From assembly GCA_902779845.1 (NCBI GenBank), contig CACZCZ010000003.1, positions 1 through 64,000 of the forward strand: DNA of 64,000 bases, written 5' to 3'. This DNA comes from an uncultured Bacteroidales bacterium (GTDB taxonomy: Bacteria; Bacteroidota; Bacteroidia; Bacteroidales; Bacteroidaceae). Positions 30,099-62,600 of the stretch are shown piece after piece (position 1 is the first letter of the stretch; every line of letters begins with the position of its first letter). Under the pieces are notes generated by a model. That model was not told the origin of the DNA. It was given only the letters and a program-made list of their open reading frames with translations, and ran no database searches. The position numbers were made by a program, and so were the translations under genes.

Positions 30099-30112
30099 TT
30101 ATCAATTTTTCA

Positions 30113-30606: not shown

Positions 30607-30609
30607 AGG

Positions 30610-31071
30610 TTATGCCTGCTCTAACAGTTTTGCTTGCTCTGCCTCTATCTCCTTGGCCAACAACTTCTTTCCTACAAAGTAATTGACAAGGAAGGCGATG
30701 CCGATAGCCAATAGCGGGAAGCCTATTAAACTGCACATTATAAGCATTTCAGTAGGTGCTCCGCCTACTATACCTGCAGAGGCACAGAATGCTAAAATAC
30801 TAAGCCCTAAGAAACCCATGACACATCCCCACAGCAGTTTCGTGAGCAGCTTTTCCTTCAGCAGTTTCTTCTGGGGAGCCATTTTCTTGAGTAAATCCTC
30901 AATGTCTGTCTCAGCATTTTTCTCAATGGCTGCCAGCACAATCTGTGTGCGTTGGCTTGTCTCGTTGATTTTCTTGCGATTATCCAACCATACGATTAAG
31001 ATGGGAAGCCCAATACCACAAATGATAGCAATGATCTTAACAATCGACTCCATTAAAACAACGTCATTCAT
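30610..31071 (-). CDS. DUF6249-like membrane protein
   Basis: The 153-residue protein has an N-terminal helix (VKIIAIICGIGLPILIVWLD) and a charged middle (KNAETDIEDLLKKMAPQKKL). A pair of helices follows (LLWGCVMGFLGLSILAFCAS and MLIMCSLIGFPLLAIGIAFLVNY split around a short loop), with a Lys/Glu-rich tail. The pattern matches DUF6249 proteins, small membrane proteins often coupled to ECF sigma genes in Bacteroidales. It lies 3 bp before the sigma gene. The function is unknown. Confidence 0.65.
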   Translation of the reverse strand: MNDVVLMESIVKIIAIICGIGLPILIVWLDNRKKINETSQRTQIVLAAIEKNAETDIEDLLKKMAPQKKLLKEKLLTKLLWGCVMGFLGLSILAFCASAGIVGGAPTEMLIMCSLIGFPLLAIGIAFLVNYFVGKKLLAKEIEAEQAKLLEQA

Positions 31072-31239
31072 AGTTTTGTTTATTTATTGGTTTATACTTT
31101 TGTTTTCTTGACCTGGTCACTAATATAACAAGTCAGAAAGACAAAAGGTGACATCCCTCTTGTATTTTTCTTTCTCACAAAGCGGTTGTCCCTGTCTCAT
31201 TCGTCAATCCTCCTTTCTGAAGGTACGGGCCTTAATTCC

Positions 31240-31728
31240 TTAGTTCCCTGCAAGCAGGTCGTAGCGAATATCATCGCAGAGCATGGAACAGCCAGGGGAG
31301 GGGACTGGTTCGGCTTGGGCGGTCTGTAGCTGCTGAGATGGAGTGGGAACTCGTACAATGCGGGCCTCGTAGATGGTATCGTGAACGACTTCGTGGATGA
31401 CTTCGCGGATGATGGCGGACTCTCCCCCCGAAGACTCTCCCCCCGCCCTCCCTATCAGGGAGGGAGCAGAATGATTTTGACTATGTGAAAGGTGACTGTA
31501 TTCTAAGGTAATTGCCCCCTCCCTCACAGGGAGGGTTGGGGTGGGTCCGCTGGGTAAGCCTTTCCCCACAAGGAATCCCACCACTAAGGCGGCAGCTGTG
31601 GCTGCCCACCACAGTGGAGTGGGTGTGCGGCGTCCTTTCAAGGGGCTTGGTGCCACGTAGAGTTGCTCGTTCTGCTCGTCGCGAAGGTCGCGGGCGGCGG
31701 AGATGATATCAGAATCTTGAAGCTGCAT
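31240..31728 (-). CDS. Single-pass membrane protein after an ECF sigma factor, with repeat-derived insertions
   Basis: The 162-residue protein has a cytosolic part (QLQDSDIISAARDLRDEQNE), one membrane helix (LWWAATAAALVVGFLVG) and a periplasmic part with HEVVHDTIYEARIVRV. It ends in CDDIRYDLLAGN. It lies downstream of the sigma gene at 31842 and is a candidate anti-sigma partner. Two stretches just after the helix (GPTPTLPVREG and SAPSLIGRAGGESSGGES) are encoded by CCCTCCCT/AGGGAGGG palindromes, so they look like in-frame insertions. The 3' end is copied at 34892-34919. Confidence 0.65.
   Translation of the reverse strand: MQLQDSDIISAARDLRDEQNEQLYVAPSPLKGRRTPTPLWWAATAAALVVGFLVGKGLPSGPTPTLPVREGAITLEYSHLSHSQNHSAPSLIGRAGGESSGGESAIIREVIHEVVHDTIYEARIVRVPTPSQQLQTAQAEPVPSPGCSMLCDDIRYDLLAGN
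31418..31549. repeat. Two CCCTCCCT palindromes inside the anti-sigma-like gene
   Basis: GCCCTCCCTATCAGGGAGGG (near 31443-31463) and CCCTCCCTCACAGGGAGGG (near 31516-31536) are separate hairpins. Both are flanked by pyrimidine- or purine-rich arms and kept in frame in the gene at 31240-31728. Confidence 0.8.
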
Positions 31729-31841
31729 AAGTCGAAAATATTAATGGTTAATTCGTGGATCTAATTGATGGTGATTTGTGTGAAAAGGTTCTTTCACATG
31801 AATGACCATGAATGGGGTACATATAATTATTCATGAATACA

Positions 31842-32408
31842 TTAAGTTCGGTACTGCTTTAACTGCTGCCGAATGAGTTGCATGGTCTTATGCAGTCGGC
31901 TTTTGACGGTGCCCATGGGTATTTCGAGGATGGAGGCGATTTGCGGAACGGTGAGTTCTTCCTCGTAGTGGAGAGAGAAGAGCAGGCGCAGGGGTGGCGG
32001 CAGATTGTCGAGGACTGCGACAAGGGCGCGCTTTAACGTCTCGCGGTCCATCTCTATTTCGATGTTCTCCGTAGCGAGGGGTTCTGCATCGAGAGTGGCG
32101 AGATAATCTGTCTCATAGGCATTGCGGCGATAGCGGTTGCGGCAGAGGTTGTAGGCAATGGTGAAGAGCCATGTGGCGAAGTCACGCCCTTCGACATAGC
32201 GGTCGCGTGCCTCAAAGAGCCGGAGGAAGGCATCGTGCGTGGCATCTGCTGCTGCATCTTCATCGCCGCCCAGCTGACGAAAGAAGAATCCTTGCAGCCG
32301 ACGGGCATAGCGGCGGTACAACTCCTCAAAAGCCGCATCACTACCAGCGCCGACGCGCAGCATCAGCTGCTCGTCAGACTGCTGGCGGAGTGGATGGAAG
32401 CTTATCAT
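31842..32408 (-). CDS. ECF-type RNA polymerase sigma factor
   Basis: The 188-residue protein shows region 2 (VGAGSDAAFEELYRRYARRL, GGDEDAAADATHDAFLRLFE, GRDFATWLFTIAYNLCRNRY) and region 4 (DNLPPPLRLLFSLHYEEELT and VPQIASILEIPMGTVKSRLH). It is preceded, 38 bp away, by a secreted-protein gene and followed by a single-pass membrane protein that is probably its regulator. It is the third sigma cassette of the region. Confidence 0.93.
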   Translation of the reverse strand: MISFHPLRQQSDEQLMLRVGAGSDAAFEELYRRYARRLQGFFFRQLGGDEDAAADATHDAFLRLFEARDRYVEGRDFATWLFTIAYNLCRNRYRRNAYETDYLATLDAEPLATENIEIEMDRETLKRALVAVLDNLPPPLRLLFSLHYEEELTVPQIASILEIPMGTVKSRLHKTMQLIRQQLKQYRT

Positions 32409-32410
32409 TA

Positions 32411-32513
32411 GTGAAAAATGAAAGAATGAAAAGTGAAAAATGTGATTTACTTTTGATGAACGGAGGGTTGGCTCCAGTTAATTCTATTTTTCACTCCTTC
32501 ACTCTTCACTTCT
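32411..32513. repeat. GTGAAAAATGA-class inverted-repeat element
   Basis: The left arm (32411-32443) and right arm (about 32487-32513) are inverted around a roughly 45-bp centre. The element spans the end of the gene at 32447, whose last ~25 residues (including EVKSEGVKNRIN) are encoded by the right arm and the centre. Confidence 0.8.
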
Positions 32514-33931
32514 ATCGGTTCCGTCTTCAAAATAACATGGGTGTGTATCGGTTCTCCTGTCAGATACTTGAGCCCTTCTTCAGGAGCTGATCCATAAAGT
32601 CCCGTGAAAGCTTCGTTGGGTCGGACGTTACCTTCCTCCACCTCATAGTGCGTGCCTCGCTCATCTTCCACTTTGTGAATGTTGAAAACGCTCGAACCGA
32701 TCACGAAGCCGTACTTGTCGGCTTCCATCTGAGCTAATATATCGTGAAACAAATGGTTCAGCCAACAGAAGCGTTCAGGGTTGTTCTTCTTATAATAAGG
32801 TAAGAGATCTTGCAACAAGATAAGATAGTGGAACGAAAGATTTCTATCATGAAGACAATCCTTCTCATTTGGATGAAATGTGAATCGCAAATATTCCATC
32901 ATGTAACGTTCTTCCACATTACGACGCTTCACGGCCAGGTTGTCGTAAGGCTTGGCCGAGTAGCGGATGGTCAACCCCTCGTTGTACAAATGTTCCTTCA
33001 AGTCGTCAGGCACACCTTCACCATATAGAAGCATGGAAATACTACTGGATGACAGATAAACAGGGCGCTTGGCATTGTCGAGAATGTAACGAAGCACACG
33101 CTCCAGTCCTTTAGAATCCGATATACTGTAACGCAAGCTGTCAGCTGTTTGGGCAGAAAATCCCATTCGCTGGATACAGGCATGGAAGAAAGGAGTGTCA
33201 CTGATGGCAGCCGCTTCGCTATAGAGAATCTTGTCACGATGCACGCCCTTCACCAGTTGCAGGATGAGTTTTCCTGTGATGTTGCCATTATGCTGTCCAA
33301 GATAGATGGCCCCCTCATCCATGCCTTGAAGTTCGTTGTAGTGGTATTGTAGATCTTCAGCAGGATATCGTCCACTATTGAAATATTGTGTCAGCAGGCG
33401 GGTGAGCCTTACGGTGTCCATTTGATTCATCAGGTACCACGACCAAACCTCGTAGTCTGCACGTTCTGCAGTGTCGGGTAGCAGTTCGATGGCACGGCTG
33501 GCGTATTTGTGAGAGATGCTGTCAGGTATGTCGTCAGGGTCATCATATTTCTGCCATTCATAGTCATAGTCGTGGGCACAATAGTTGAATGTATAGCTAT
33601 CGGGAATGGCCTGCTCCATCCGTCTCATCAAGTCAAACTTGCGGCGCATCTCTTGCTGGGCTTCGAAAAACTCATCGCCAGTCTTGAAGTGTTTGGGGCT
33701 TACCAAATACTGATACTCATAATGAATGTAAACTTCATATAGATTGCGCCACGCCACTTCGTCTTTCGGATGTATTTGGACAAATTCGTTCCAATAGTTA
33801 TACATACTATCTAACTGCAGGCTGTCAGCCCTATACAGAGTTATGCTCCGATTGATGCGTTCTGTCTGTTGTGCGCCTGCACCTATGAATGTGGTTGCAG
33901 CGAGTATGAGGGTTAATAGCGTTCGTTTCAT
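32447..33931 (-). CDS. Secreted protein of unknown function, possibly helical-repeat
   Basis: The 494-residue protein begins with a signal peptide (RTLLTLILAATTFIGAGAQQ). The remainder is mostly alpha-helical and rich in Tyr, Leu and Glu (LQLDSMYNYWNEFVQIHPKD, EVAWRNLYEVYIHYEYQYLV, KYASRAIELLPDTAERADYE, VWSWYLMNQMDTVRLTRLL). The spacing suggests TPR-like repeats, though none is canonical. Its last residues are encoded by a repeat element. It lies upstream of and close to an ECF sigma gene (38 bp). Its own promoter element is at 34040-34047, so it may be the first gene of the sigma unit. Confidence 0.7.
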   Translation of the reverse strand: MKRTLLTLILAATTFIGAGAQQTERINRSITLYRADSLQLDSMYNYWNEFVQIHPKDEVAWRNLYEVYIHYEYQYLVSPKHFKTGDEFFEAQQEMRRKFDLMRRMEQAIPDSYTFNYCAHDYDYEWQKYDDPDDIPDSISHKYASRAIELLPDTAERADYEVWSWYLMNQMDTVRLTRLLTQYFNSGRYPAEDLQYHYNELQGMDEGAIYLGQHNGNITGKLILQLVKGVHRDKILYSEAAAISDTPFFHACIQRMGFSAQTADSLRYSISDSKGLERVLRYILDNAKRPVYLSSSSISMLLYGEGVPDDLKEHLYNEGLTIRYSAKPYDNLAVKRRNVEERYMMEYLRFTFHPNEKDCLHDRNLSFHYLILLQDLLPYYKKNNPERFCWLNHLFHDILAQMEADKYGFVIGSSVFNIHKVEDERGTHYEVEEGNVRPNEAFTGLYGSAPEEGLKYLTGEPIHTHVILKTEPIEVKSEGVKNRINWSQPSVHQK

Positions 33932-34039
33932 TGTTTTCTGTTTCGTTTTAGTGTTACTGTTTATGGAAAGCAGTGTGACGTCGTTTGCCTTTCTACTACA
34001 GCATACACACGAGACGGGAATCGTTCACGGAAATCACCA

Positions 34040-34047
34040 CAAAAGTA
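34040..34047 (-). promoter_or_regulatory. Promoter -7 element upstream of the 33931 gene
   Basis: TACTTTTG on the minus strand, about 108 bp upstream of the secreted-protein start. The leader is otherwise empty. Confidence 0.5.
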
Positions 34048-34132
34048 CAATCTTTCCAGAGAAAATGCAGACCTTTCCACAATTTCCTTCATTCAGAGAT
34101 GCGTTTTTTCCCTTTTTTCATCCTCTTCCCCC

Positions 34133-34180
34133 TTTTTTCCTCATTTTATGATTATGATTTAGAGAAATGTTGTACTTTTG
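34133..34180 (+). promoter_or_regulatory. Promoter block of the ParE-type TA operon (duplicated at 35060-35105)
   Basis: The block CATTTTATGATTATGATTTA, then GAGAAATGTTGTACTTTTGC, ends in the -7 element TACTTTTG at 34173-34180. It lies 22 bp before the antitoxin start. Nearly the same ~46 bp stand before the second antitoxin gene at 35129. Confidence 0.8.
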
Positions 34181-34202
34181 CAGGCAGAAAAAGGAAAACA
34201 AT

Positions 34203-34481
34203 ATGAGTACTGTCGCATTAAATGGCCTGTTTGAATACATCACGAATTCTCTTTCAGAGGAAGAGTTGAAGTGGTTGGTTGCAGAACTAAATACAGTTAC
34301 CTCCAAGTCCCACAGGAAGTTGGAGCCATATACTATGGAAGAGATCAATGCCCGCATAGATGAATCAGAGCGGCAGATAGCAGCAGGAGAGTGCAGCACA
34401 ACGGACGATGTGTTCAGCAGAATACGCAGAAAGTATGAAAAGAAAGCTGCAGGACAATTAGAAGAGGCTTTGGCTGTATGA
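34203..34481 (+). CDS. Putative antitoxin of a ParE/RelE-type pair
   Basis: The 92-residue protein reads MSTVALNGLFEYITNSLSEE and ELKWLVAELNTV near the N-terminus and EPYTMEEINARIDESERQIA near residue 50, followed by a basic end. It overlaps the toxin gene by 4 bp (ATGA), the typical antitoxin-first layout. A YefM/Axe-like fold is not evident, so the call rests on size, order, coupling and the toxin downstream. ATG 34203 is preferred because the promoter -7 element is at 34173. Confidence 0.8.
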   Translation: MSTVALNGLFEYITNSLSEEELKWLVAELNTVTSKSHRKLEPYTMEEINARIDESERQIAAGECSTTDDVFSRIRRKYEKKAAGQLEEALAV

Positions 34482-34789
34482 ATGTAGAATGGACAAAACA
34501 GGCAGAACGGGCTCTTGATGAAGCTGTAGATTATGTGTTTGAAGAGTATGGATGGGATGCCTGTGATAGATTTCTCTTTCGGGTGCATCATGCAGCACAG
34601 TTATTGGAGGACCACCCTCACCTTGGCCCAGAAGAGCCTTTGCTCTCAGAACGCCAAGTGAAATATCGCAGTGTCGTGGTAGGGCATCTGAACAAGATTG
34701 TCTATTGTATTCTCGATAATCATATTTCAATTGTAGACTTCTGGGACACTCGTCGTGAACCAGAAGCATTGGCCGCACAAGTGGATTAA
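34478..34789 (+). CDS. ParE/RelE-superfamily toxin
   Basis: This 103-residue protein of the ParE/RelE fold has VEWTKQAERALDEAVDYVFE at the N-terminus (the characteristic W-x-x-x-A-x-x-x-L helix). Then come LEDHPHLGPEEPLLSERQVK and the strand run YRSVVVGHLNKIVYCILDNH and ISIVDFWDTRREPEAL. The DFWDTRR end matches the conserved C-terminal strand and basic residues of this family. Members inhibit gyrase (ParE) or cleave mRNA on the ribosome (RelE); which applies here is unclear. Its tail codons are shared with the remnant near 29632. Confidence 0.88.
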   Translation: MNVEWTKQAERALDEAVDYVFEEYGWDACDRFLFRVHHAAQLLEDHPHLGPEEPLLSERQVKYRSVVVGHLNKIVYCILDNHISIVDFWDTRREPEALAAQVD

Positions 34790-34919
34790 GCCCCACACAA
34801 GTGCCCTGTGCTGACATTGCTTCTATGACGCCTCTAAACGAGTTCGCATCTGCAGAATGTCCTGGACATTGCTGACGATACTGATGAGGCCATAGTTCCC
34901 TGCAAGCAGGTCGTAGCGA
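34773..34919. repeat. Composite of two copied gene tails
   Basis: Positions 34773-34892 copy 29636-29754 (the tail block of the two-pass membrane protein gene and the ParE tail). Positions 34892-34919 copy 31241-31267 (the end of the gene at 31240). The two pieces are joined at TTCCCTGCA/TGGCCATAG without a spacer. Confidence 0.88.
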
Positions 34920-34957
34920 AGCTCATCGGCGATATATGTGAACTCTTTTTGCGTCAT
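34823..34957 (-). CDS. Chimeric 44-residue ORF made of two gene tails
   Basis: On the minus strand from ATG 34957 the frame reads MTQKEFTYIADELRYDLLAGN, then YGLISIVSNVQDILQMRTRL and EAS-stop. The first half ends like the gene at 31240 (IRYDLLAGN-stop there). The second half equals the end of the gene at 29685 (GLISIVSNVQDILQM...). The original stop of the first is lost, so both tails are in one frame. Upstream a TATATTTTG motif near 34990 could be a promoter. Whether it is expressed is unknown. Confidence 0.45.
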   Translation of the reverse strand: MTQKEFTYIADELRYDLLAGNYGLISIVSNVQDILQMRTRLEAS

Positions 34958-35059
34958 TACACTTATATAACGAACAAGCTCCTGCAAAATATACAAGAAA
35001 TAACGACTTTTTTCACGCTACGCTATCTTTTTCTTCATTTTCCCCCCTCATCCCTTCTT

Positions 35060-35105
35060 TTTTCTTCATTTTATGATTATGATTTAGAGAATTGTTGTAC
35101 TTTTG
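35060..35105 (+). promoter_or_regulatory. Duplicated TA promoter block
   Basis: It matches 34133-34180 at nearly every base, including ATTTTATGATTATGATTTAG and the -7 element TACTTTTG (35098-35105), and lies 23 bp before the antitoxin start. Confidence 0.8.
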
Positions 35106-35128
35106 CGGCAAGTAACAAAAACAATAGT

Positions 35129-35344
35129 ATGCAAGCAGCCACTTTAACCCCAACCCAACAGCATTTGCTCAAGCTGTTTTCTTTCAACAACAGTGAGGCT
35201 TTTGCTCGTGAAATACAAATGGTGCTCACCAAGCACTTTCAGGCTCTTCTTGATGCTGAGGCTGACAAACTCTGGGACGAGGGTATCCTGAATCAAGAGC
35301 GTCTTGATGCAATGCGTTTCGAGGACTTCCATGCAAAGAAGTGA
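35129..35344 (+). CDS. Putative antitoxin of a PIN-type pair
   Basis: The 71-residue protein reads MQAATLTPTQQHLLKLFSFN and NSEAFAREIQMVLTKHFQAL, followed by DAEADKLWDEGILNQERLDA. This resembles the short helical antitoxin-like proteins that precede PIN-domain toxins in Bacteroidales (pattern of an alpha-helical L-x-x-x-x-x-F domain ending in DKLWDEG). ATG 35129 is chosen over an earlier start because the promoter element is at 35098. The toxin gene downstream is broken (35352-35471). Confidence 0.7.
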   Translation: MQAATLTPTQQHLLKLFSFNNSEAFAREIQMVLTKHFQALLDAEADKLWDEGILNQERLDAMRFEDFHAKK

Positions 35345-35351
35345 TTATTGA

Positions 35352-35471
35352 GCAGTAGCTGCCAATGCTCATTTTATTGTTACTGATGATCATCATTATA
35401 ATGTACTCTTAGGAATGGAGTTCCCAAAAGTGTCGATCATTAAGCTGGATTCGATGATGAATCTCCTATAA
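35352..35471 (+). pseudogene. Remnant of a PIN-family toxin C-terminus
   Basis: Beginning 8 bp after the antitoxin stop, the + strand reads AVAANAHFIVTDDHHYNVLL and then GMEFPKVSIIKLDSMMNLL-stop. The A-x-x-x-V-T-D-D-x-x-x-x-x-L and FPKV-x-I-I blocks are the C-terminal core of PIN toxins of the COG1569 type. The frame has no start and the N-terminal ~90 residues, with the first catalytic Asp, are gone. An orphaned antitoxin remains upstream. Confidence 0.8.
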
Positions 35472-35513
35472 AGGTTGATGCACAGAGGACAACAAATGTG
35501 AAGAGGATGCATT

Positions 35514-35542
35514 AAAAAGGGGAGCGTGAAACGCCCCCCTTT
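35514..35542 (-). terminator. Terminator of lpdA
   Basis: AAAAGGGGAGCGT and ACGCCCCCCTTT form a stem with a GAA loop about 20 bp after the lpdA stop on the minus strand. On the other strand it could also end the TA unit. Confidence 0.75.
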
Positions 35543-35561
35543 ATATGTTGTTTTTGTGAGG

Positions 35562-36905
35562 TTAGTTGACCTCGATGAGGACTTCGGAGAGGGTGGGATG
35601 GATGTGTACCGTCTCACGGAGTTGGCGCAGGGTGGCGCCGAGGGTGATGTAGGCCGTCACCTCCTGCACGAGGTCGGCAGCATGGGCTCCGAAGATGTGG
35701 GCGCTGAGGATGCGGCCCTCGCCGGGTTCGGTGCACAGCTTCACCATGCCCTCTGTCTCGTTCATCGCCAAAGCCTTTCCGTTGGCGCGGTAGAAGGATT
35801 TGTGACACTCATAGGGTGTGCCCTGTTCCTTTAGCTGGTCCTCGCTGGGGCCTACGCAGGCGGCTTCGGGTGTGGTGAAGATGGCGGCGGGCATCACGTC
35901 GAAACGGATGTGGTCCTCGATGCCGAGGATGCGGTTCACAACGTGTAAGCCCTGCATCTCGGCGGCGTGAGCCAGCATCTGACGCCCGTTGACATCGCCG
36001 ATGGCGTAGAGGTGAGGAGAATTAGAAAATGTGAAATTAAGAGAATTAGAAGGGGCTGGAGCATCGCCTTTCTTATTTTCTTCATTTCTTATTTTCTTCA
36101 CTTCATAGTGCTCATCGACGGGGATGGCACCGTTGCGCTGGAGGGTGATGCCGAGGGCTTCGAGGTTCAGCCCCTCTGTGCGCGGCTTGCGCCCTGTGGC
36201 TACCAGAATGATGTCGGCAGCGACGCTGTCAGTCTGTCCCTTCTTGTTTTCGAAGAACACTTGGCCGTCGGCAATCTGCTTCACGCCACATTGCAGGTTG
36301 AAGGTAATCCCCTCTTTCTCCATCTGTTTGCGCAGACGCTTGGCGATGTCGCTGTCGAGGGCAGGCAGACACTCCTTGAGGAACTCAATGACCGTCACCT
36401 CAGCGCCAAAGCGGTTGAAGACGCTGGCGAACTCCATCCCGATGACGCCGGCACCGATGATGCAGAGGCGCTTGGGGAGGGTGTCCAGGTTCAAGAGACC
36501 GGTGGAATCGACCACATTGGGGCTCTCGATGCCCGGCACGGGAATCAGCTTGCTGTCGGAACCGGTGGCAATGATGATGTTGTCGGCAGTGAAGGTTTCG
36601 TCGCTGACACGAACGGTGTGGGCATCGACGAAGGAGGCTTTGCCGCGCACCAGCGTGATGTTGGGGTGGGTGAGGAGTGTCTCTATTCCGCTGCGCAGTT
36701 GCTCCACCACTTGCGGTTGCCGCTCGATAGCCTCCTCGAAGGACACCGAGTGGACGAAGGTCTTGGTAGGGATACAGCCCACGTTGAGGCAGGTGCCTCC
36801 GACATGTTCCTGCTCGAAGATGGTGACTTGAAGTCCGTGCTGTGCGGCGTGGAGGGCGGTCTTGTAGCCCCCGGGGCCTGCTCCGATGATGATAAGTTGT
36901 GACAT
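35562..36905 (-). CDS. lpdA: Dihydrolipoyl dehydrogenase
   Basis: This E3 flavoenzyme reoxidises the lipoyl arm of GcvH and of 2-oxoacid dehydrogenases. FAD-binding IIGAGPGGYKTALHAAQHG, the redox disulfide GGTCLNVGCIPTK (about 38-50), the NAD-binding IIGAGVIGMEFASVFNRFG and the C-terminal active-site HIHPTLSEV (His-Glu) are all present. ATG 36905 is preferred; the promoter element lies at 36933-36940. Residues about 267-296 (KIRNEENKKGDAPAPSNSLN...) interrupt the normal run between DEHYEV and LYAIGDVNGRQM. They are encoded by a repeat found also in gcvPB, so LpdA carries an in-frame insertion of about 27 residues in a surface loop. Confidence 0.95.
   Translation of the reverse strand: MSQLIIIGAGPGGYKTALHAAQHGLQVTIFEQEHVGGTCLNVGCIPTKTFVHSVSFEEAIERQPQVVEQLRSGIETLLTHPNITLVRGKASFVDAHTVRVSDETFTADNIIIATGSDSKLIPVPGIESPNVVDSTGLLNLDTLPKRLCIIGAGVIGMEFASVFNRFGAEVTVIEFLKECLPALDSDIAKRLRKQMEKEGITFNLQCGVKQIADGQVFFENKKGQTDSVAADIILVATGRKPRTEGLNLEALGITLQRNGAIPVDEHYEVKKIRNEENKKGDAPAPSNSLNFTFSNSPHLYAIGDVNGRQMLAHAAEMQGLHVVNRILGIEDHIRFDVMPAAIFTTPEAACVGPSEDQLKEQGTPYECHKSFYRANGKALAMNETEGMVKLCTEPGEGRILSAHIFGAHAADLVQEVTAYITLGATLRQLRETVHIHPTLSEVLIEVN
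36017..36104. repeat. In-frame element in lpdA, homologous to the one in gcvPB
   Basis: The + strand reads GAGAATTAGAAAATGTGAAA, then TTAAGAGAATTAGAAG, then a short GC-rich centre and TTCTTATTTTCTTCATTTC. It is nearly identical over about 83 bp to 43845-43930, with differences mainly in the centre. Arms are purine-rich against pyrimidine-rich (imperfect inverted repeat). Confidence 0.92.
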
Positions 36906-36932
36906 AAACGATGATTGCCTGGTTTGTTGGCA

Positions 36933-36940
36933 CAAAGGTA
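36933..36940 (-). promoter_or_regulatory. Promoter -7 element of lpdA
   Basis: TACCTTTG on the minus strand, 27 bp upstream of ATG 36905. A TTG at 36961-36963 (minus strand) stands 20 bp further upstream, fitting the -33 element. Confidence 0.8.
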
Positions 36941-37035
36941 CAAATCAATGACTTTGTCGCCAAATGAAAGGAGGTTTTTTTAGCGCTGAACTCATATTTA
37001 TAGGTGTAATCTTTGGTCATTCAACAAATAACGTA

Positions 37036-37043
37036 TAAATTTG
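37036..37043 (+). promoter_or_regulatory. Promoter -7 element of the 37083 lipoprotein gene
   Basis: TAAATTTG matches TAnnTTTG, 39 bp upstream of the start. Confidence 0.7.
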
Positions 37044-37082
37044 TGCCGTTTTTAACTTTAATCATCAAAAATTTTAATTAAA

Positions 37083-38057
37083 ATGAAAAGCGTAAAATTC
37101 TTTTCTCTGTTAGTATTGGCAATGGCTGCTGGTCTGGCCTTCTCTTCATGTAGCAAGGACAATGACGGCGGCAGCGGTAGCGGAATCCTCCCTCCCGCAG
37201 TTAAACCTCAGACACCTGCCGATGCCCGCTATGTCATCACAGACATGAGCAGCGACATCGATTTCATTGAACTCACAAAAGACATGCATTATATTGTGTC
37301 TGAGTCAGATTCCTACATGACCAAGTCCGATGCCGAGCCACGTATCGTCGAAGGTATATACACCATCAAGGACGGTGTTTACTACCTCGAGGGCTGGGGT
37401 ACCATGGTTATTAGAACTGTGGAAGAGGGCGTTGAGCTCGATGTGACACCTATAGGCGCCACACAGGCTGTTACCCTGACGGCTGAATACGAAGAGCCTA
37501 TCATCACTGACAATAATGCAAAGAAGCTTTGCAAGTCATGGATGTACAAAGCATTTAACATCAAGATGCGTATATTCTTGAAGAAGTTCGATAAGGATTA
37601 TACCCCGCAGGAGATGCAGCAAATGCCGGCAGATATCAAGGCATTCATGTTAAGTGCTGTTCCGGCAGCAATGCGTCCGGCCATTGAGGAAATGGATTTT
37701 GGAGAAATCGCTCATTCGATTGACATGGAAGGCTTCGACATGAAGCGTACCTTCACCACCTACGGCACCGTTGTAGGTCAGAACGAGAGACGTACTGAAA
37801 TTGACTACTGGCGTTGGTACGACCAGAAGAACGGTATTATCTGGATTGGACATAATCTGGACAGATTTGAAAATCTCGGTGATAAAGAGGTTGAGTCAAT
37901 TTTTGCTGTCAGCTACCGCGGCACTCAGCTTTGCCTCACCTTGGCAGGTTTCGATATGCAAACCATGATGGGGGTTCAATTACCTGATATCCTAAAGAAT
38001 CTCCTGGATGCAAGCATGGACTTCAGCGCAGCCATGATATTCGATCCTGCTAAGTAA
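37083..38057 (+). CDS. Surface lipoprotein of unknown function
   Basis: The 324-residue product has a lipoprotein signal (LVLAMAAGLAFSSC; Cys about 23). The acidic/Gly start of the mature protein (SKDNDGGSGSG) suits outer-surface export. The rest is a soluble domain of unknown family. A beta-rich part (YVITDMSSDIDFIELTKDMH, YLEGWGTMVIRTVEEGVELD) resembles DUF4923/lipocalin-like proteins only loosely. A helical part follows (EMQQMPADIKAFMLSAVPAA). The terminator at 38081-38114 closes a single-gene unit. It stands between lpdA and the TA cluster. Confidence 0.75.
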   Translation: MKSVKFFSLLVLAMAAGLAFSSCSKDNDGGSGSGILPPAVKPQTPADARYVITDMSSDIDFIELTKDMHYIVSESDSYMTKSDAEPRIVEGIYTIKDGVYYLEGWGTMVIRTVEEGVELDVTPIGATQAVTLTAEYEEPIITDNNAKKLCKSWMYKAFNIKMRIFLKKFDKDYTPQEMQQMPADIKAFMLSAVPAAMRPAIEEMDFGEIAHSIDMEGFDMKRTFTTYGTVVGQNERRTEIDYWRWYDQKNGIIWIGHNLDRFENLGDKEVESIFAVSYRGTQLCLTLAGFDMQTMMGVQLPDILKNLLDASMDFSAAMIFDPAK

Positions 38058-38080
38058 GCAGACTTTTCGATTCCAAATAG

Positions 38081-38114
38081 AAAAGGGGCCTTGCCAATTG
38101 GCAAAGCCCCTTTC
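38081..38114 (+). terminator. Rho-independent terminator
   Basis: AAAAGGGGCCTTGCC, loop AATT, GGCAAAGCCCCTTT, then CTTAATG: a strong hairpin 24 bp after the lipoprotein stop. Confidence 0.85.
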
Positions 38115-38135
38115 TTAATGTCGAAGAGTTAGGGA

Positions 38136-38391
38136 TTAGTCTTCATGGAAGAGTTGGGGGAAGTAGATGGTGGATTTGCCGATACGAAGTGCACCCTTGC
38201 ACCCATAAAGGCGACTTTCCATTGTTTGTATCCTTCCATTTCAGCAGGCGGTCGTAGATTTTACGTTTGAATACTCTGCCAGTATCCACATCATATTTTT
38301 TTGCAAGGATAACGCTTTCATTCATTTCTTCAAAATTTATTTGAGTGTTTTTCCCGAAATCCTCAAAATTTAGGGTAATGTGATAGTGCAC
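38136..38391 (-). pseudogene. Truncated AAA-family ATPase with frameshift
   Basis: From ATG 38391 the minus strand has TGRVFKRKIYDRLLKWKDTN and NGKSPLWVQG, the N-terminal lead-in of the Bacteroidales AAA ATPases that carry a DUF4143 C-terminal domain. After the frame shifts by one base near 38195, the other frame gives GALRIGKSTIYFPQLF-stop (stop at 38136), which contains the Walker A motif (G-x-x-x-x-G-K-S-T). The rest, about 350 residues, is missing. The gene is clearly dead. Confidence 0.75.
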
Positions 38392-38515
38392 GACGCTGGT
38401 ATCGCCCCGATAAATACTGAAGCTTTATACAGAATTAATCATCATGAAAAGAAGGGAATGATAGTAAAATAGTTATTTTTCTTGAAAAATGTTTGGCTGT
38501 TCGTAGTAATATTAC

Positions 38516-38523
38516 TACCTTTG
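38516..38523 (+). promoter_or_regulatory. Promoter -7 element of hicAB
   Basis: TACCTTTG, 14-15 bp upstream of ATG 38538. Confidence 0.75.
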
Positions 38524-38537
38524 CGGCAGAAAACATA

Positions 38538-38747
38538 ATGAAAGTTCTTATGAAAGTGATTAAAGCTAGAAAGATCCTGAAGGCGTTGAAAGATGACGGA
38601 TGGATACTCAAGCATCAGGTAGGGAGTCATGCCCAATATGTTCACCCAACTAAACCAGGAAAAGTTACAATTAATGGCACTGGCAACGATGACGTGTATG
38701 GTGATCTTCTGAAAAGCATTGAAGAGCAATCGGGGCTGGAGTTTTAA
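38538..38747 (+). CDS. hicA: HicA-type mRNA interferase toxin
   Basis: This small double-stranded-RNA-binding-like toxin shows KARKILKALKDDGWILKHQV, the catalytic GSHAQYVHPTKPGKVTI and the closing GDLLKSIEEQSGL. The G-S-H motif carries the catalytic His. ATG 38538 is chosen because the promoter lies at 38516; ATG 38550 is a possible alternative. It precedes hicB by about 125 bp, with no overlap. Family knowledge: HicA cleaves mRNA and is neutralised by HicB. Confidence 0.92.
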   Translation: MKVLMKVIKARKILKALKDDGWILKHQVGSHAQYVHPTKPGKVTINGTGNDDVYGDLLKSIEEQSGLEF

Positions 38748-38872
38748 TAAACTTCTTCCCCACTACTAATAATACTTCCACGATTCGAATATCGAGGTTG
38801 TTCAAATTGGCAGCAAAGAGTTCAAATGATTCTTGCCACTCTATAAAAAGAAAGCTACAAAGACATTATATT

Positions 38873-39280
38873 ATGGCAACCGTTATTATGAACACCGCAC
38901 GTACCGAAAACGGGTATAGTTGCGCTTGCGACCTTCTCCCTGGGTGGGTTGTCGCATGCTCAGGCGACTTTGAGCAGTTCAAGAAAGAAGTCGAAGATAG
39001 TATCAAGTTTTATGTTGACTGTGCAAAAGAGGACGGTGACGAATATCCTGCAGTGTTTGACGGGGAATATGAAATCATCTACAAGTTCAATGTTCAGTCG
39101 CTCCTAGATTTTTACAGAGGGATATTTTCTTTCTCATCTCTGGAAGCTATTACAGGAATCAACCAAAAACAACTTGCACACTATGCTTCAGGCATCAGCA
39201 GGCCACGACCTAAGCAGGCTCAGAAGATAGCAGAAGGTCTGCATCGATTGGCACACGAAATGATGGTGGTAACGGTATAG
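38873..39280 (+). CDS. hicB: HicB-type antitoxin
   Basis: The 135-residue product has an N-terminal partial RNase H-like HicB domain (TARTENGYSCACDLLPGWVV, AKEDGDEYPAVFDGEYEIIY). The C-terminal helix-turn-helix (SLEAITGINQKQLAHYASGI, SRPRPKQAQKIAEGLHRLAH) would let the complex repress its own promoter. ATG 38873 gives MATVIMNTARTENGYS. The order toxin-first is usual for hicAB. A terminator-like hairpin follows at 39319-39346. Confidence 0.88.
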   Translation: MATVIMNTARTENGYSCACDLLPGWVVACSGDFEQFKKEVEDSIKFYVDCAKEDGDEYPAVFDGEYEIIYKFNVQSLLDFYRGIFSFSSLEAITGINQKQLAHYASGISRPRPKQAQKIAEGLHRLAHEMMVVTV

Positions 39281-39318
39281 AAAAAAAGGAACCATTTATT
39301 AATTCCGTTCTTTATTTA

Positions 39319-39346
39319 AAGGAGCATCCACATCGGGTGCTCCTTC
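39319..39346 (+). terminator. Terminator after hicB
   Basis: AAGGAGCATCC, loop ACATC, GGGTGCTCCTT: a stable hairpin 38 bp after the hicB stop, followed by CTTCG. Confidence 0.75.
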
Positions 39347-39710
39347 TTCGATTGTGCAATTATGTTTTCATTGGACTCAGACAAATACGCGAGCTGGTGC
39401 CGAGCGATCTTTCAATGATTCGTTTGCAAATATAGTGCATATTCTTCAATCTTGCCCAACTTCTTATGCTAAAATGCAGCATTAAATATCGAGAAATACT
39501 TAGGACTAGGCAGTTCCGAGGCCTCTGGGTCTAAGCCTGCGGACTGTGGCGCTCTACTATCGGACTTCAAAAAAAATCGAATAGTAACGACACAGGTTGA
39601 ATCAGGAAGAAAGTACACTCGCAAGAGTGATTAAATCTTTTGTGCCAGCCCTGTTGGTTTAGTTTTTTATTAGAAGTTTTTAAACCAACATAGTCCCGCT
39701 CTTTAGTGGC

Positions 39711-39743
39711 TCCCCGTGACAGTAATATCGCGGGGATTTTTTT
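39711..39743 (+). terminator. Hairpin with T-tract
   Basis: TCCCCG (39711-39716) pairs with CGGGGA (39731-39736), followed by seven Ts. No gene on this strand ends nearby, so it may terminate an unrecognised small RNA or be a relic. Confidence 0.5.
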
Positions 39744-40066
39744 GTGTATATATTCTTGCCCTTGACTCCGAGATTCCATATTCGTATAATGCTAGAAAAA
39801 GTATTGATGACACAAGAAATGAACAAAATGCTTAGTGGAGTTATGAGTGGCATTCGTTATCGCCTCTTTATGTTTTCGTACCAAATTTGTATTAGAATTT
39901 GGTTGATATGTATGCGTATAACTATCTGGCTTATGGAACATCCGATTGTAATCCATTTTGCGGGTAATATTGGCGACTATATTGAACTGTACAATTTCCT
40001 TTTTGCATAAAAATAGTTCATCTTTATATGGCTAGACGATATAAATCTCCCAGAGAGAAATTTCTG

Positions 40067-40954
40067 TTAATCAATTAATAACTGACTCAGAAAATTATTG
40101 ATACGGCTTAAATCTTGTACATAGAAAGAGCGATATGACTCTTTGTATTTGCAAAAATCTTTCATAAAACGAACAAGAGAAATTAATGCACCTTCCAATA
40201 TCTCCTTCATAAAATTGTCTTCTGCTTTGAGATTATACATTTTCCAGAAGTGCTCCACGCCCAAATAACTAGGATGCGAATGAGCGGAGAAATGTGGATA
40301 TGTAAACCTTGTTTGTGTAAAATCCTTAGCAGCATCACTGAAGCTCAAAGCACAAAAAGACGTAATGTTACCACTTTGCTCAGAGTGCTCAAACTTAAAT
40401 CCTCTTAAAGATGCATCGCCATCCTTAATCCATTTTTCAATAGAATCACAGACTGATTGAGATAACGAAAGCTCACACATCAATTTATGGATATCCTTTC
40501 TTAGTTCATCGTTTTCTTCAACTTTTGCAAGTTGTTTTTCCTGTTCTTCTTCATTCAATTCTGATTTGGGAATTTTTATCAGATTGTTGTTTCCTCGAAT
40601 CTTCCAAATTCTTAGCAACAGCTCCCGTTCCGTATCATTTATAGAAGAAGCGTAAATGCACCTGAAGATGATATTCATCTCAAGCATACTCCTAAGAACA
40701 GGGTATATATTAGATGGGTCGATAATACAGACTATTTGTTCAGATTGCATAGTAATCCCACCGCTCATGAGCCAAACATTCTTTGCTTTGCATACCATCA
40801 TCTGATACATGCTTTCTGCCATACATTCACAATCTGAAAGTGTAGTAGATTGCTCCTTTTTCCACTCAATGTAAATATCAAGCATAATATCGGACAGCTC
40901 ATTTACAGAATGTCTCAATAGTTCTAATGTTTTGTTGTTTTCAATCTTATCCAT
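40067..40954 (-). CDS. Hypothetical helical protein in AT-rich island
   Basis: I do not recognise this 295-residue protein with confidence. It is alpha-helical and contains VYPVLRSMLEMNIIFRCIYA-like SNIYPVLRSMLEMNIIFRCI, a Lys/Glu-rich middle (SELNEEEQEKQLAKVEENDE), and HSHPSYLGVEHFWKMYNL near the C-terminus. The H-x-H plus helical layout is reminiscent of DUF5677-type proteins of defence-like islands, which is a weak guess. ATG 40954 (MDKIENN) is preferred over 41002, which would overlap the upstream gene. Base composition is clearly more AT-rich than neighbouring housekeeping genes, consistent with acquisition. Confidence 0.6.
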   Translation of the reverse strand: MDKIENNKTLELLRHSVNELSDIMLDIYIEWKKEQSTTLSDCECMAESMYQMMVCKAKNVWLMSGGITMQSEQIVCIIDPSNIYPVLRSMLEMNIIFRCIYASSINDTERELLLRIWKIRGNNNLIKIPKSELNEEEQEKQLAKVEENDELRKDIHKLMCELSLSQSVCDSIEKWIKDGDASLRGFKFEHSEQSGNITSFCALSFSDAAKDFTQTRFTYPHFSAHSHPSYLGVEHFWKMYNLKAEDNFMKEILEGALISLVRFMKDFCKYKESYRSFYVQDLSRINNFLSQLLID

Positions 40955-40982
40955 TTTCCCAGTATAATATAATCGTATATAA

Positions 40983-42786: not shown

Positions 42787-44406
42787 TTATTCCTGGAGGG
42801 CCTTCCAATACGTTGTAATAGGCTGCTTAGCCGCCAGCACATCGTCCACACGTCCGATGGGCGTGTTGTGGGGAGCGGTCTTGACCAGCTCGGGGTCGCT
42901 CTTGGCCTCGGCGGCAATCTTGTGCATCACATCGATGAAGGCATCGATGGTCTCCTTGCTTTCGTTCTCCGTGGGCTCAATCATGAGGCTCTCATGGAAG
43001 AGGAGGGGGAAGTAGATGGTGGGAGCATGGTAGCCGTAGTCGAGGAGGCGCTTGGCAACGTCCATCGTGGTGACGCCCGTGCTCTTATCTACGAGGCCGT
43101 CGAAGACACATTCGTGCTTGCACAGGCCCTCGATGGGGAGGAGGTAGTCATCGCGCAGGCGTTCCTTAATATAATTAGCGTTGAGCGTGGCCAACGGTCC
43201 TACCATCTTCACGTTCTCACGACCGAGACTGAGGATGTAAGCGTAGGCCTTCAGCATCACGCCGTAGTTGCCGAAGAAGGAGCCGACAGAAAGACCCTCT
43301 CCCCGCTCCCCCGTTAGGGGGAGAGCCTCGCTCCGCTCGTTGGCTGGCGCTGTAACAATGCGCAGCTCAGCCCCTCCCTGACGGGAGGGGTCGGGGGTGG
43401 GTCTAGTGACGCGTGGATAAGGCAGGAACTGCTCCAAACCCTTACGCACGCCGACAGGGCCGCTGCCGGGACCGCCACCGCCGTGGGGCGTGGAGAAGGT
43501 CTTGTGCAGGTTGATGTGCATGACGTCGAAGCCCATGTCGCCCGGACGGCATTCGCCGAGGAGCGCGTTGAGGTTAGCACCGTCGTAGTACATCAGGCCG
43601 CCGGCTTTGTGCACCATCTCCGTAATCTCCATCACGCGCGGCTCGAAGATACCAAGGGTGTTGGGGTTGGTCATCATCATGGCTGCCACCTGGTCGCCCA
43701 ACTCATCAAGGAGCTGGCGGAGGTGCTCGACATCCACGGTGCCATCGGCCAGGCTCTTCACCTCTACGACCTCAAGGCCGCAGACAGCGGCAGAGGCGGG
43801 GTTGGTGCCATGGGCTGAATCGGGGATGAGGACTTTGGTCCTTTGAGAATTAGAAAATGTGAAATTAAGAGAATTAGAAGCGGCAGGCGCTTCGCCTTCC
43901 TTATTTTCTTCATTTCTTATTTTCTCATTTCCCATCGCCTCATGATAGGCACGGATGACCATCAAGCCGGTCAGCTCGCCGTGGGCACCGGCACAGGGAT
44001 TCAGCGTGAACTCGCTGAGGCCGGCCAGTTCCGCAAGGGACTGCTGAAGGTTGTAATAGACTTCGAGGGCGCCCTGACACGTCTCAGCGGGCTGCAAGGG
44101 ATGCAAGCCGGCAAAGGCCTTCATGGCAGCAATCTCCTCGTTGATGACGGGGTTGTACTTCATCGTGCAGGAACCGAGGGGGTAGAAGCCGTCGTTGACG
44201 CCGAAGTTGTTATGGCTGAGGTTCGTGTAGTGACGCACCACGGTCAGCTCGTCGCACTCCGGCAGACGGGCAGCCTCCTTGCGGCGCAGCGCCTCGGGCA
44301 GTTCGGCGGTGCTGTGCGAGCGGTCGTAGTCCTGAGGCAGGGAGTAACCTTTGCGTCCTTTCTTTGAGAGTTCAAAGATAAGTTTTCCGTATAATGTTCT
44401 GTTCAT
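42787..44406 (-). CDS. gcvPB: Glycine dehydrogenase (decarboxylating) subunit 2
   Basis: This is the catalytic half of the split P-protein; it decarboxylates glycine and passes the aminomethyl group to lipoyl-GcvH. Motifs include YPLGSCTMKYNP, LTGLMVIRAYHEAMG, IPDSAHGTNPASAAVCG and the PLP lysine in HINLHKTFSTPHGGGGPGSG (about residue 300). At 539 residues it is longer than the usual ~480-490. Two stretches account for this: residues about 159-187 (KIRNEENKEGEAPAASNSLN...) and about 334-371 (TRPTPDPSRQGGAELRIVTA...). Both are encoded by repeat elements, the first shared with lpdA. Its start overlaps the small ORF upstream by 4 bp (ATGA). Confidence 0.95.
   Translation of the reverse strand: MNRTLYGKLIFELSKKGRKGYSLPQDYDRSHSTAELPEALRRKEAARLPECDELTVVRHYTNLSHNNFGVNDGFYPLGSCTMKYNPVINEEIAAMKAFAGLHPLQPAETCQGALEVYYNLQQSLAELAGLSEFTLNPCAGAHGELTGLMVIRAYHEAMGNEKIRNEENKEGEAPAASNSLNFTFSNSQRTKVLIPDSAHGTNPASAAVCGLEVVEVKSLADGTVDVEHLRQLLDELGDQVAAMMMTNPNTLGIFEPRVMEITEMVHKAGGLMYYDGANLNALLGECRPGDMGFDVMHINLHKTFSTPHGGGGPGSGPVGVRKGLEQFLPYPRVTRPTPDPSRQGGAELRIVTAPANERSEALPLTGERGEGLSVGSFFGNYGVMLKAYAYILSLGRENVKMVGPLATLNANYIKERLRDDYLLPIEGLCKHECVFDGLVDKSTGVTTMDVAKRLLDYGYHAPTIYFPLLFHESLMIEPTENESKETIDAFIDVMHKIAAEAKSDPELVKTAPHNTPIGRVDDVLAAKQPITTYWKALQE
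43292..43404. repeat. GC-rich inverted-repeat element inside gcvPB
   Basis: Outer arms AGACCCTCTCCCCGCTCCCC and GAGGGGTCGGGGGTGGGTCT enclose a nested palindrome CCCCCGTTAGGGGG and a centre with CTCGCTCCGCTCGTTGG. It is in frame and adds about 37 residues between PYPRV and LSVGSFFGNYG. Confidence 0.88.
43845..43930. repeat. In-frame element in gcvPB, homologous to the one in lpdA
   Basis: Nearly identical to 36017-36104. It interrupts the conserved run between YHEAMGN and RTKVLIPDSAHG, which is contiguous in other GcvPB proteins (HRTKV-x-IPDSAHG). Confidence 0.92.
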
Positions 44407-44540: not shown

Positions 44541-44544
44541 GTTT

Positions 44545-59648: not shown

Positions 59649-62600
59649 ATGGCCATTTCTTTCTTTAGAACCCCGCAAAAAACGATTATCGCCACGCAGG
59701 CGAATCATCAGTTAACTCCCGAAGAAATCCAGAAACTGTGTTGGCTCTATGGTGGTGCCACGCTCATCGAAGCCTCTACCCTTGACGGCACCTTCGTAGG
59801 TCCCCGCCGCGAGATGATAACACCATGGAGCACCAACGCTGTGGAGATCACGCAGAACATGGCCATCCAGGGCATTCAGCGCATCGAGGAATACTATCCG
59901 ATTGAACAATTGGACAATTTACAATTGGACAATTCTAATAGCAGTTCACAGCAATCTTCGGAGCCTAAATCGTCAAATGGTAAATCGTCAAATAGTCAAA
60001 TTGATCCGATGCTCCAACGTCTCTACAAAGGCCTCAATCAGGACATCTTCACGGTCAACATCCAGCCCGCTCCCATCCAGCACATCGAGAACTTGGAGGA
60101 GTACAACGAGCAGGAGGGCTTAGCCTTGTCGCCCGAGGAGATTGAATACCTGCACAAGGTGGAAGGGCAGCTGGGCCGCAAGCTCACAGACTCCGAGGTC
60201 TTCGGCTTCGCACAAATCAACAGTGAGCACTGCCGCCACAAGATCTTCGGCGGCACCTTCATCATCGACGGCAAGGAGATGCCCAGCAGCCTCTTTGCGA
60301 TGATCAAGCGCACGACACAGGAGAACCCGCATAAGATCATCTCCGCATATAAAGATAATGTGGCGTTTGCCGAAGGCCCCGTCGTGGAGCAGTTTGCACC
60401 CGCCGACCACGCCACCAGCGACTGGTTCCGCGTGAAGCCCATCGAGAGTGTCATCAGCATCAAAGCCGAGACGCATAACTTCCCTACGACCGTAGAGCCG
60501 TTCAACGGTGCTTCCACCGGTACGGGCGGCGAGATCCGCGACCGCATGGGCGGCGGCGTAGGCTCATGGCCCATCGCCGGCACGGCGGTGTATATGACTT
60601 CGTACCCGAGGTCGGATGAGGGTTTAGGGTTTATGGATGAGGGAAAAGAACCCTCACCCCTCCGCTCGGCGCCATGCGACGCTTCACGCTTGAAGAACCC
60701 TCAACCCTCAACCATGAAGCCACGTCAGTGGCTCTACCAGACGCCGGAGCAGATTCTCATCAAGGCTTCAAATGGCGCCAGCGACTTTGGCAACAAGTTC
60801 GGCCAACCGCTCATCACTGGTTCTGTGCTCACCTTCGAGCACGAGGAGAACGGCGAGCAGTATGGCTACGACAAGGTCATCATGCTGGCCGGCGGCGTGG
60901 GCTACGGCACAAAGCGCGACTGTCTGAAGGGCACGCCCGAGAAGGGCAACAAGATTGTCGTCGTGGGCGGCGACAACTACCGCATTGGTCTCGGCGGCGG
61001 CTCCGTTAGCAGTGTAGATACAGGCCGCTACAGCAGCGGCATCGAGCTGAATGCCGTCCAGCGTGCTAACCCTGAGATGCAGAAACGCGCTTACAACCTC
61101 GTGCGTTCGCTCTGCGAAGAAGATGTCAATCCCGTCGTCAGCATCCATGACCACGGCTCGGCAGGTCATGTGAACTGCTTGAGCGAACTCGTGGAGGAGT
61201 GCGGCGGTCTCATTGATATGACCAAACTGCCCATCGGCGACCCGACGCTCTCCAGCAAGGAGATCATCGCCAACGAGAGCCAGGAGCGCATGGGCCTGCT
61301 GATTCAAGAGGAACACATCGATCACGTCCGCAAGATTGCCGAGCGCGAGCGCGCTCCGCTGTATGTCGTCGGCGAGACCACAGGCGACGCCCACTTCGCC
61401 TTCGAGCAGGGCGACGGTGTCCGTCCCTTCGACCTTGACGTGGCCCAGATGTTCGGTCACTCCCCGAAAACGGTGATGACCGACGAAACCGTCGAGAGGC
61501 GCTACGCAGACGTTTCGACGGAAGTGAAAAATGAGAAAGTGAAAAGTGAAAAATATAATATACCTGGTTCCTTCGAGAAACAAACCACCTTTGCAGGAAA
61601 CTCTGATTTTTCACTTTTCACTCATTCACTTTTCACTTCGCTTCAAGCCGTTCTCTCGCTGGAAGCCGTGGCTTGCAAGGACTGGTTGACAAACAAAGTC
61701 GATCGTTCTGTGACGGGTAAGGTGGCACGCCAGCAATGTCAGGGCGAGCTGCAGCTGCCGCTCTCGGACTGCGGCGTCGTAGCCCTCGACTACAAAGGAG
61801 AGAAAGGTATTGCTACAGCCCTCGGTCATGCGCCGCAAGCCGGTCTTGCCGACCCCGCCGCAGGCTCCGTCCTCTCTGTGGCTGAGAGCCTGACGAACAT
61901 CGTATGGGCTCCGCTGGCGGAAGGTCTCGACAGCGTCAGCCTCAGTGCCAACTGGATGTGGCCGTGCCGCTCGCAGAAGGGCGAGGATGCCCGTCTGTAC
62001 AAGGCCGTAGAAGCCCTCTCGGAGTTCTGCTGTGCGCTGGAAATCAATGTCCCGACAGGTAAGGACAGTCTCTCCATGACCCAGAAATATCCCGATGGCA
62101 CGAAGGTCATCGCGCCGGGCACCGTCATCGTCACTTCCGGCGGTGAGGTCAGCGACATCCGCAAGGTTGTGAGCCCCGTGCTGGCTGATGAACCTAAGAG
62201 CGCCCTCTACCATATCGACTTCTCATTCGATGAGCTGCGTCTCGGTGGCAGCGCCTATGCCCAGAGCAAAGGCAAGGTGGGCAGCGATGTGCCGACGTGC
62301 ACGAACCCCGAATACTTCCGTGATGCCTTCGATGCCGTGCAGGACTGCGTGAAGAAGGGACTGCTGCTGGCTGGTCATGACATCAGTGCCGGCGGTCTTA
62401 TCACCACGCTCCTGGAGATGTGCTTCGCCAACACGAAGGGCGGCCTGAAGGTCAACCTCAACAACTTCGCCTGCGAAGACCTCACGAAAATCCTCTTCGC
62501 CGAGAATCCCGGTGTCGTGGTGCAGGTCAGCACCAAGCACGAGGAGGAGTTCAAGAAGCTGATGGACGAAGCCGGCGTGGGCTATATATATATAGGTGTA

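Follow-up and report, generated by a model that had tools for sequence, protein, structure and literature searches.

A palindromic repeat lies in frame in lpdA and gcvPB of an uncultured Bacteroidales bacterium

The stretch analysed here (the window) comprises the first 64,000 nucleotides of contig CACZCZ010000003.1, from the genome assembly of an uncultured Bacteroidales bacterium (GCA_902779845.1). A preliminary description, made from the letters alone, had noted near-identical segments of about 83 bp in two of its genes, lpdA and gcvPB, and had proposed that a copied or mobile element adds a similar peptide to both proteins. The features concerned, all on the minus strand, are as follows.

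35562..36905, minus: lpdA, dihydrolipoamide dehydrogenase, first carrier (Pfam Pyr_redox_2 and Pyr_redox_dim; PDB homologues 3urh and 1dxl); the open reading frame (ORF) spans 35562-36935, with an ATG at 36905
36017..36100, minus: palindromic element copy 1, in frame, 81-nt core 36017-36097, peptide KKIRNEENKKGDAPAPSNSLNFTFSNS (RNA hairpin z -3.5 and -3.0 in two tests)
36069..36097, minus: 5' arm of copy 1, A-rich octamers (sequence reading; period 8/16; paired in the RNA fold)
36052..36068, minus: centre of copy 1, G+C-rich (sequence reading and alignment)
36017..36051, minus: 3' arm of copy 1, T-rich (sequence reading; pairs with the 5' arm in the RNA fold)
42787..44406, minus: gcvPB, glycine dehydrogenase subunit 2, second carrier (Pfam GcvP2_C; PDB homologue 1wyt_B)
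43845..43928, minus: palindromic element copy 2, in frame, 81-nt core 43845-43925, peptide EKIRNEENKEGEAPAASNSLNFTFSNS (RNA hairpin z -2.5 and -2.9 in two tests)

The two copies and the loops that hold them

A repeat search within the window aligned 36017-36097 with 43845-43925 at 94% identity over 81 nt (self-BLAST E 1.9e-29), with differences at 5 of 78 aligned sites. Both cores lie inside open genes in a common reading frame, and each copy adds about 26 residues, KKIRNEENKKGDAPAPSNSLNFTFSNS in LpdA and EKIRNEENKEGEAPAASNSLNFTFSNS in GcvPB. The near-identity, the shared strand and the shared frame thus stand as first described; the extents given then, 36017-36104 and 43845-43930, had the right location and overshoot the 81-nt core by a few bases. 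A 25-nt probe with up to three mismatches found just these two places in the window, against a mean of 0 in 100 shuffles. In the whole source genome (G000, a 2.92-Mb draft in 47 contigs, 85.9% complete), DNA search at good score and a covariance model likewise found two places only, which the covariance model matched on both strands. Here lpdA and gcvPB stand 5.9 kb apart (36906-42786, which holds other ORFs); they are adjacent in the genome G003 and near each other in G016. The nearest named relatives found are metagenome-assembled genomes of rumen Bacteroidaceae/Prevotellaceae.

The element is an imperfect palindrome in which arms of about 30 nt, built of A-rich octamers in tandem, approximately (TAAGAAAA)n, and their complement, flank a short G+C-rich centre. 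Its consensus starts with TAAGAAAA and ends with TAATTCTC, and terminal inverted repeats are present, if imperfect. When the two copies were folded on themselves, z was -3.5 and -2.5 as RNA and -3.4 and -3.8 as DNA. When inverted repeats were sought strictly and without gaps, the window plus 240 kb yielded few palindromes, and Rfam gave no match at gathering score across 34000-46500. Comparison by eye of filled and empty gcvPB and lpdA sites, whose borders are degenerate, made no target-site duplication evident. A phage origin was rejected for lack of peptide matches in phage records and of exact 35-mer matches in viral contigs.

Solved homologues and most aligned relatives lack the insert. 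In the solved dihydrolipoamide dehydrogenase 3urh, 4 residues stand between query positions 268 and 298, and in the glycine dehydrogenase subunit 1wyt_B the residues flanking the gcvPB insert are contiguous. The peptide at gcvPB site 1 is present in 3 of 35 aligned sequences and missing in 32, with a different repeat at that place in G027; this count is without the partial row L021 (G018), which has another in-frame repeat, a heptad insert, at site 1. The lpdA site A peptide occurs in 2 of 39 aligned sequences. Rows left out as partial or distant were L021, L045, L046, L066 and L068 for gcvPB and L023, L024 and L043 for lpdA, together with near-identical and short rows. Among the named loci of a second set, the peptide appears in 2 of 81 gcvPB rows (G000 itself and Tb.RUG.375), with other site-1 inserts in 4 further rows, and in 1 of 76 lpdA rows (G000 itself). 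An ancestral segment conserved in distant relatives, which the preliminary description had named as the finding that would speak against a copied element, is thereby rejected.

Where the lpdA loop has no insert it reads FETTVKGIYAIGDV or similar. In sister species this loop is occupied by heptad repeats (GTCAATG, CTCAACT, AAATGGT), by G+C-rich palindromes or by apparent shrunken remnants (MRNDASASSNTPHI and KIIRDGENPHL). The lpdA and gcvPB loops accept, and again and again gain, unrelated repeats. A structure model of LpdA, which matches E3 structures, has block-mean predicted local distance difference test (pLDDT) values of 50-72 over residues 271-300 against an overall mean of 90; as modelled, the insert would form a flexible loop, which favours the spacer reading given below. 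The model of GcvPB was poor (mean pLDDT 65.8) and was set aside.

Relatives of the element across the genus

We searched 139 genomes of the genus by peptide profile and by covariance model. The profile gave 10 matches at E<1e-5, all in gcvPB, lpdA or gcvT; the next-ranking matches (G035 and G135) are upstream of a dapA-like gene. With the covariance model, 50 of the 139 genomes had matches at E<=0.01; many of these fell on both strands, which is expected of palindromes. A part of all matches, from genomes with extracted stretches or returned loci, was classified into 85 distinct places, of which 70 are intergenic and 15 within an ORF. Eleven of these 15 are clear full-length in-frame copies, 81-92 bp long and all in gcvPB, lpdA or gcvT, at five sites:

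gcvPB site 1: G000, G003, G016 and G064
gcvPB site 2: G003 and G091
lpdA site A: G000, G003 and G087
lpdA site B: G064
gcvT: G155

All 11 have one orientation, one frame and no stop. The copy count and the frame in each gene, which the preliminary description had proposed to establish in this genome and its relatives, thus come to two places in G000 and a frame shared by 11 gcv coding copies. Of the other four places within an ORF, one is an in-frame palindromic insert in the C-terminal tail of a GH53 protein (G026, L224 245-1648), and three (L214, L227 and L248) are in ORFs that are probably spurious. Among 40 copies tested from the intergenic list, the median hairpin z is -3.3, with 31 of 40 below -2.

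We sought the nearest downstream gene with an ATG for 72 places, namely the 70 intergenic ones together with L214 and L248. The places form 29 clusters by downstream protein, and when the value nearest 5 nt is retained per cluster, a choice that favours the pattern, the distance from the element end to the next ATG is -3 to 12 nt in 17 of 29 clusters and 3-6 nt in 13 of 29. Several far-off distances probably reflect antisense ORFs. In 14 of the 72 places, some at orthologous loci, the first element triplet is the stop codon that closes the upstream frame. The 3' end lies 4 nt before the ATG of gcvPA in G003, and equally 4 nt before that of one downstream gene type in four genomes, which we take from its sequence to be glycosyltransferase-like.

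Because the element often ends 3-6 nt before an ATG and in part begins with the upstream stop, its hairpin would bring stop and start together. The intergenic form could then be a dedicated RNA linker between genes, the hairpin juxtaposing stop and start and keeping the genes translationally coupled; copying that targets junctions would feed the stock, and genic copies would survive only in frame and in loops. We consider this linker reading tentative and, on balance, unlikely. If it were true, several families together would actively supply core enzymes of the genus with in-frame insertions.

The window also has two heptad-repeat arrays, at 32410-32511 and 23347-23383, directly upstream of start codons (of ORFs running from 32408 on the minus strand and from 23393 on the plus strand). 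Their placement resembles that of the intergenic octamer palindromes.

Differences between copies of the element are about evenly spread over the three codon positions, although the compared pairs are not independent, whereas 169 of 254 differences in the gcvPB flank between G000 and G003 fall at third positions. Because of this contrast the peptide resembles, at sequence level, a spacer rather than a module under selection. We place no weight on the idea that the element is more conserved than its flanks, since the 180 nt on each side of the gcvPB insert are identical at 320 of 360 positions between G000 and G003. Set against whole-gene third positions, the element is more conserved; by third positions alone, this is significant for lpdA only (p 0.0001), with p 0.08 for gcvPB.

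The gcvPB copy of G000 shares 88-90% identity with lpdA copies and 86-88% with its own orthologues. As it is thus as near to the former as to the latter, conversion from lpdA and retention of an ancestral form are equally possible, and the resolution of the gcvPB tree is too low for counting gains and losses. Gene conversion between the two genes, as the preliminary description had suggested, is not decided by these pairwise identities; local copying within the gcv cluster fits and is likely.

The element looks, from its sequence, as if it were translated, and it is one of several families with in-frame insertions in this genus. Further inserts in the window are:

43288..43404, minus: second gcvPB insert, of a G+C-rich palindromic family whose ends are constant and whose centre varies, RPTPDPSRQGGAELRIVTAPANERSEALPLTGERGEGLS (in frame; other copies in long open frames of G000)
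59616-63578: purL, formylglycinamide ribonucleotide (FGAR) amidotransferase, with three repeat inserts, all in frame and from different families, recognised as insertions relative to a partial G003 orthologue (664 aa, ending at the stretch end)
59901..60001, plus: purL insert, tandem repeat (Tandem Repeats Finder, TRF; insertion relative to the partial orthologue)
60619..60713, plus: purL insert bounded by AGGGTTT/AACCCTC units (TRF; insertion relative to the partial orthologue)
61521..61639, plus: purL insert of a third (heptad) family, palindromic (ungapped inverted repeat 30/34; insertion relative to the partial orthologue)

The 43288-43404 family has 40 matches in G000 at E<=1, and the 7 at E<1e-4, gcvPB's own included, all lie in stop-free frames. 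We scanned 10 ORFs with inserts of this family, several of which had scored weakly in the family search; 9 of the ORFs, with the insert in frame, have Pfam domains, from which we named them RumA/TrmA-like, Mfd-like, YidC-like, sulfatase, CarA-like, inositol monophosphatase, DnaG-like, MetH-like and S9 peptidase. The insert lies within a single domain match in the Mfd-like and inositol monophosphatase ORFs and adjoins a broken match in the sulfatase and CarA-like ones. Among 20 reciprocal pairs from part of G000 and part of G003, 2 have an insertion of at least 10 aa, too few for generalising; the gcv genes do not show in this comparison because both genomes carry the inserts.

In G155 another family, of about 110 bp (SPLPAPPLGE...NEALPQRGSGEGA; loci L346-L368), gave 118 matches at E<=1, many of which are a single place matched on both strands, since the palindrome yields much the same peptide in either direction. 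It occupies many places and is in frame in several genes, among them lpdA and a nearby lplA-like gene, where the peptides are 86% identical. This pair is a second instance of alike inserts in two genes of the gcv cluster.

Some other repeats were seen in passing. The window from 25900 to 35640 is a patchwork of short near-identical duplications (25907-26032 = 27059-27183; 29637-29754 = 34775-34892; 31241-31276 = 34893-34928), with fragments of the lpdA 3' end at 29210-29294 and 27031-27065; it could be a decayed tandem duplication of the region. A 162-aa ORF at 31240-31728 has no Pfam match and encodes a G+C-rich, palindrome-like peptide (PTPTLPVREG...APSLIGRAGGESSGGES). On contig C7 of G000, the 434-aa ORF at L284 1261-2565 has a borderline Y1 transposase domain and itself contains tandem in-frame repeats, (AAEVHGGERD)n.

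Weighing the explanations

The analysis shows a repeat that folds as a palindrome, keeps its frame, is absent from homologues, occurs in this and sister species at five in-frame sites within three gcv genes, and has many intergenic relatives. Very probably, each of the two 81-84-bp stretches represents one copy of a non-autonomous repeat, palindromic though imperfectly so, that was inserted in frame in loops of lpdA and gcvPB and that adds, on translation, a flexible spacer of about 26 residues. The copied or mobile element first proposed is supported: the insert is missing from solved homologues and most relatives and belongs to a dispersed palindromic family. As the copies are in frame, stop-free and in a loop, they would be translated and tolerated in LpdA and GcvPB. 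Short-range copying within the gcv gene cluster probably spread them, and the intergenic stock of hairpins would be the source of the genic copies.

Several observations weigh against this spacer reading. The subfamily has two places in G000, both in nearby genes, so that the word mobile depends on the relatives; G000, like many of those relatives, is a draft metagenome assembly. Coding copies form weaker hairpins (median z -2.4 over the 12 tested, of which 6 are below -2), and the consensus fold (RNAalifold) retains just 9 pairs, one of them changed on both sides. The frame in which genic copies are read is open in 12 of 12 coding copies versus 7 of 40 copies from the intergenic list, a difference that is partly an ascertainment effect and partly true by definition. 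The concentration in gcv genes is biased and partly built in, as the search models were made mainly from gcv copies and a few others; with that bias, the 11 clear copies still make the shared glycine-cleavage pathway, which the preliminary description had left as a possible coincidence, look like more than that. For the G+C-rich family, inserts lie outside or between domain matches in 5 of 9 ORFs, where interruption of the gene body is less directly shown. Neither a target-site duplication, nor a transposase (searched as PF01797 only), nor a clean empty-site junction was seen to support transposition.

The strongest competitor invokes no mobile family, just a single gene conversion or short duplication by which one of two neighbouring genes, having acquired the stretch, handed it to the other. 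It would account for the 94% identity of the G000 pair, agrees with the closeness of lpdA and gcvPB here, in G003 and in G016, and has parallels in the other short near-identical duplications of the window. It does not account for the same subfamily in gcvT and at second sites of gcvPB and lpdA in congeners, nor for related palindromes dispersed through the genomes, and we judge it improbable, while local copying may still explain the pair itself. Three proteins of a single pathway have in-frame copies of this subfamily, which could instead point to an ancestral or functionally selected glycine-cleavage module, such as a docking segment. Absence from solved homologues and most aligned relatives, substitutions not concentrated at third positions, unrelated repeat peptides in the same loops of sister species and other families in unrelated enzymes make this very unlikely.

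We think it equally unlikely that intron-like excision or ribosomal bypass eliminates the hairpin from the message or its reading, leaving normal proteins: the predicted RNA hairpin could join its flanks, but a skipped element would need neither the frame nor the freedom from stops that the 11 gcv coding copies have. An assembly or binning artefact might be suspected in an incomplete draft of 47 contigs; with copies that differ at 5 of 78 sites, flanks that match relatives and orthologous inserts in other assemblies, we give it next to no credence.

Comparison with known systems

Short palindromes that are mostly intergenic, with some inside ORFs, recall the repetitive extragenic palindromic (REP) elements, whose GTAG/CGTC super-families are so described in the excerpted text of PMC3733652, with the CGTC type reported from Bacteroidetes. 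By the definition in that text, the element differs in that its consensus has no terminal GTAG/CGTC tag and is longer than 20-40 bp. The Y1 domain (PF01797) of the REP-associated tyrosine transposase (RAYT) matched in 14 of 41 genomes, at borderline scores in G000 (24.1 and 22.8 bits, cut-off 23), and had no match in the element-bearing G016, G020 and G064, which are incomplete drafts; RAYT-driven spread is not supported by this distribution.

Bacterial miniature inverted-repeat transposable elements (MITEs), such as ERIC and Correia/NEMIS, are likewise small, non-autonomous and bounded by inverted repeats, and some are fused in frame to ORFs, as parts of PMC2229807 relate. Within the Bacteroidetes, BrickBuilt of Porphyromonas gingivalis combines a minisatellite with a MITE, and the portion of that paper at hand calls prokaryotic MITEs almost exclusively intergenic (PMC4596501). 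Here, in contrast, no target-site duplication or parental insertion sequence was found, the latter searched through PF01797 only. Coding palindromes in nematomorph mitochondria are also inverted repeats within protein-coding genes; there, according to PMC6649704, both arms encode conserved protein sequence, whereas here the repeat is an added spacer. Searches of an open-licence library brought up no report of in-frame palindromic elements in Bacteroidetes.

By analogy, the nearest known system, apparently alike in its working, is the Rickettsia palindromic element (RPE). RPEs are short palindromes that occur in intergenic DNA and also, in frame, within conserved protein genes (extracts of PMC2229807 and PMC10969869). 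RPEs and their Wolbachia counterparts share with the present element a palindrome with a predicted long hairpin, and places both intergenic and in frame in genes whose outside homologues lack the insert. Different families occupy the lpdA and gcvPB loops here, much as the RPE-4, -6 and -7 loci hold different RPE groups in different species in the material consulted from PMC3767692. The present element belongs to another phylum and measures 81-92 bp, below the 105-146 bp given for RPEs in the extracts of PMC2229807 (68-192 bp in the R. japonica table of PMC3767692). Its arms, moreover, consist of tandem octamers or heptamers, and many of its intergenic copies end a few nucleotides before a start codon. 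The likeness is drawn from descriptions and not from sequences, and we therefore do not file the element as an RPE.

Rickettsia and Wolbachia offer the best-documented cases of in-frame palindromic insertion. A rumen genus with several unrelated in-frame palindromic families in core enzymes would be a second, many-species system. It also cautions that protein insertions in this group can be translated repeats and not domains. Such a system, set beside the RPEs, would let insertion, shrinkage and replacement be traced at one loop.
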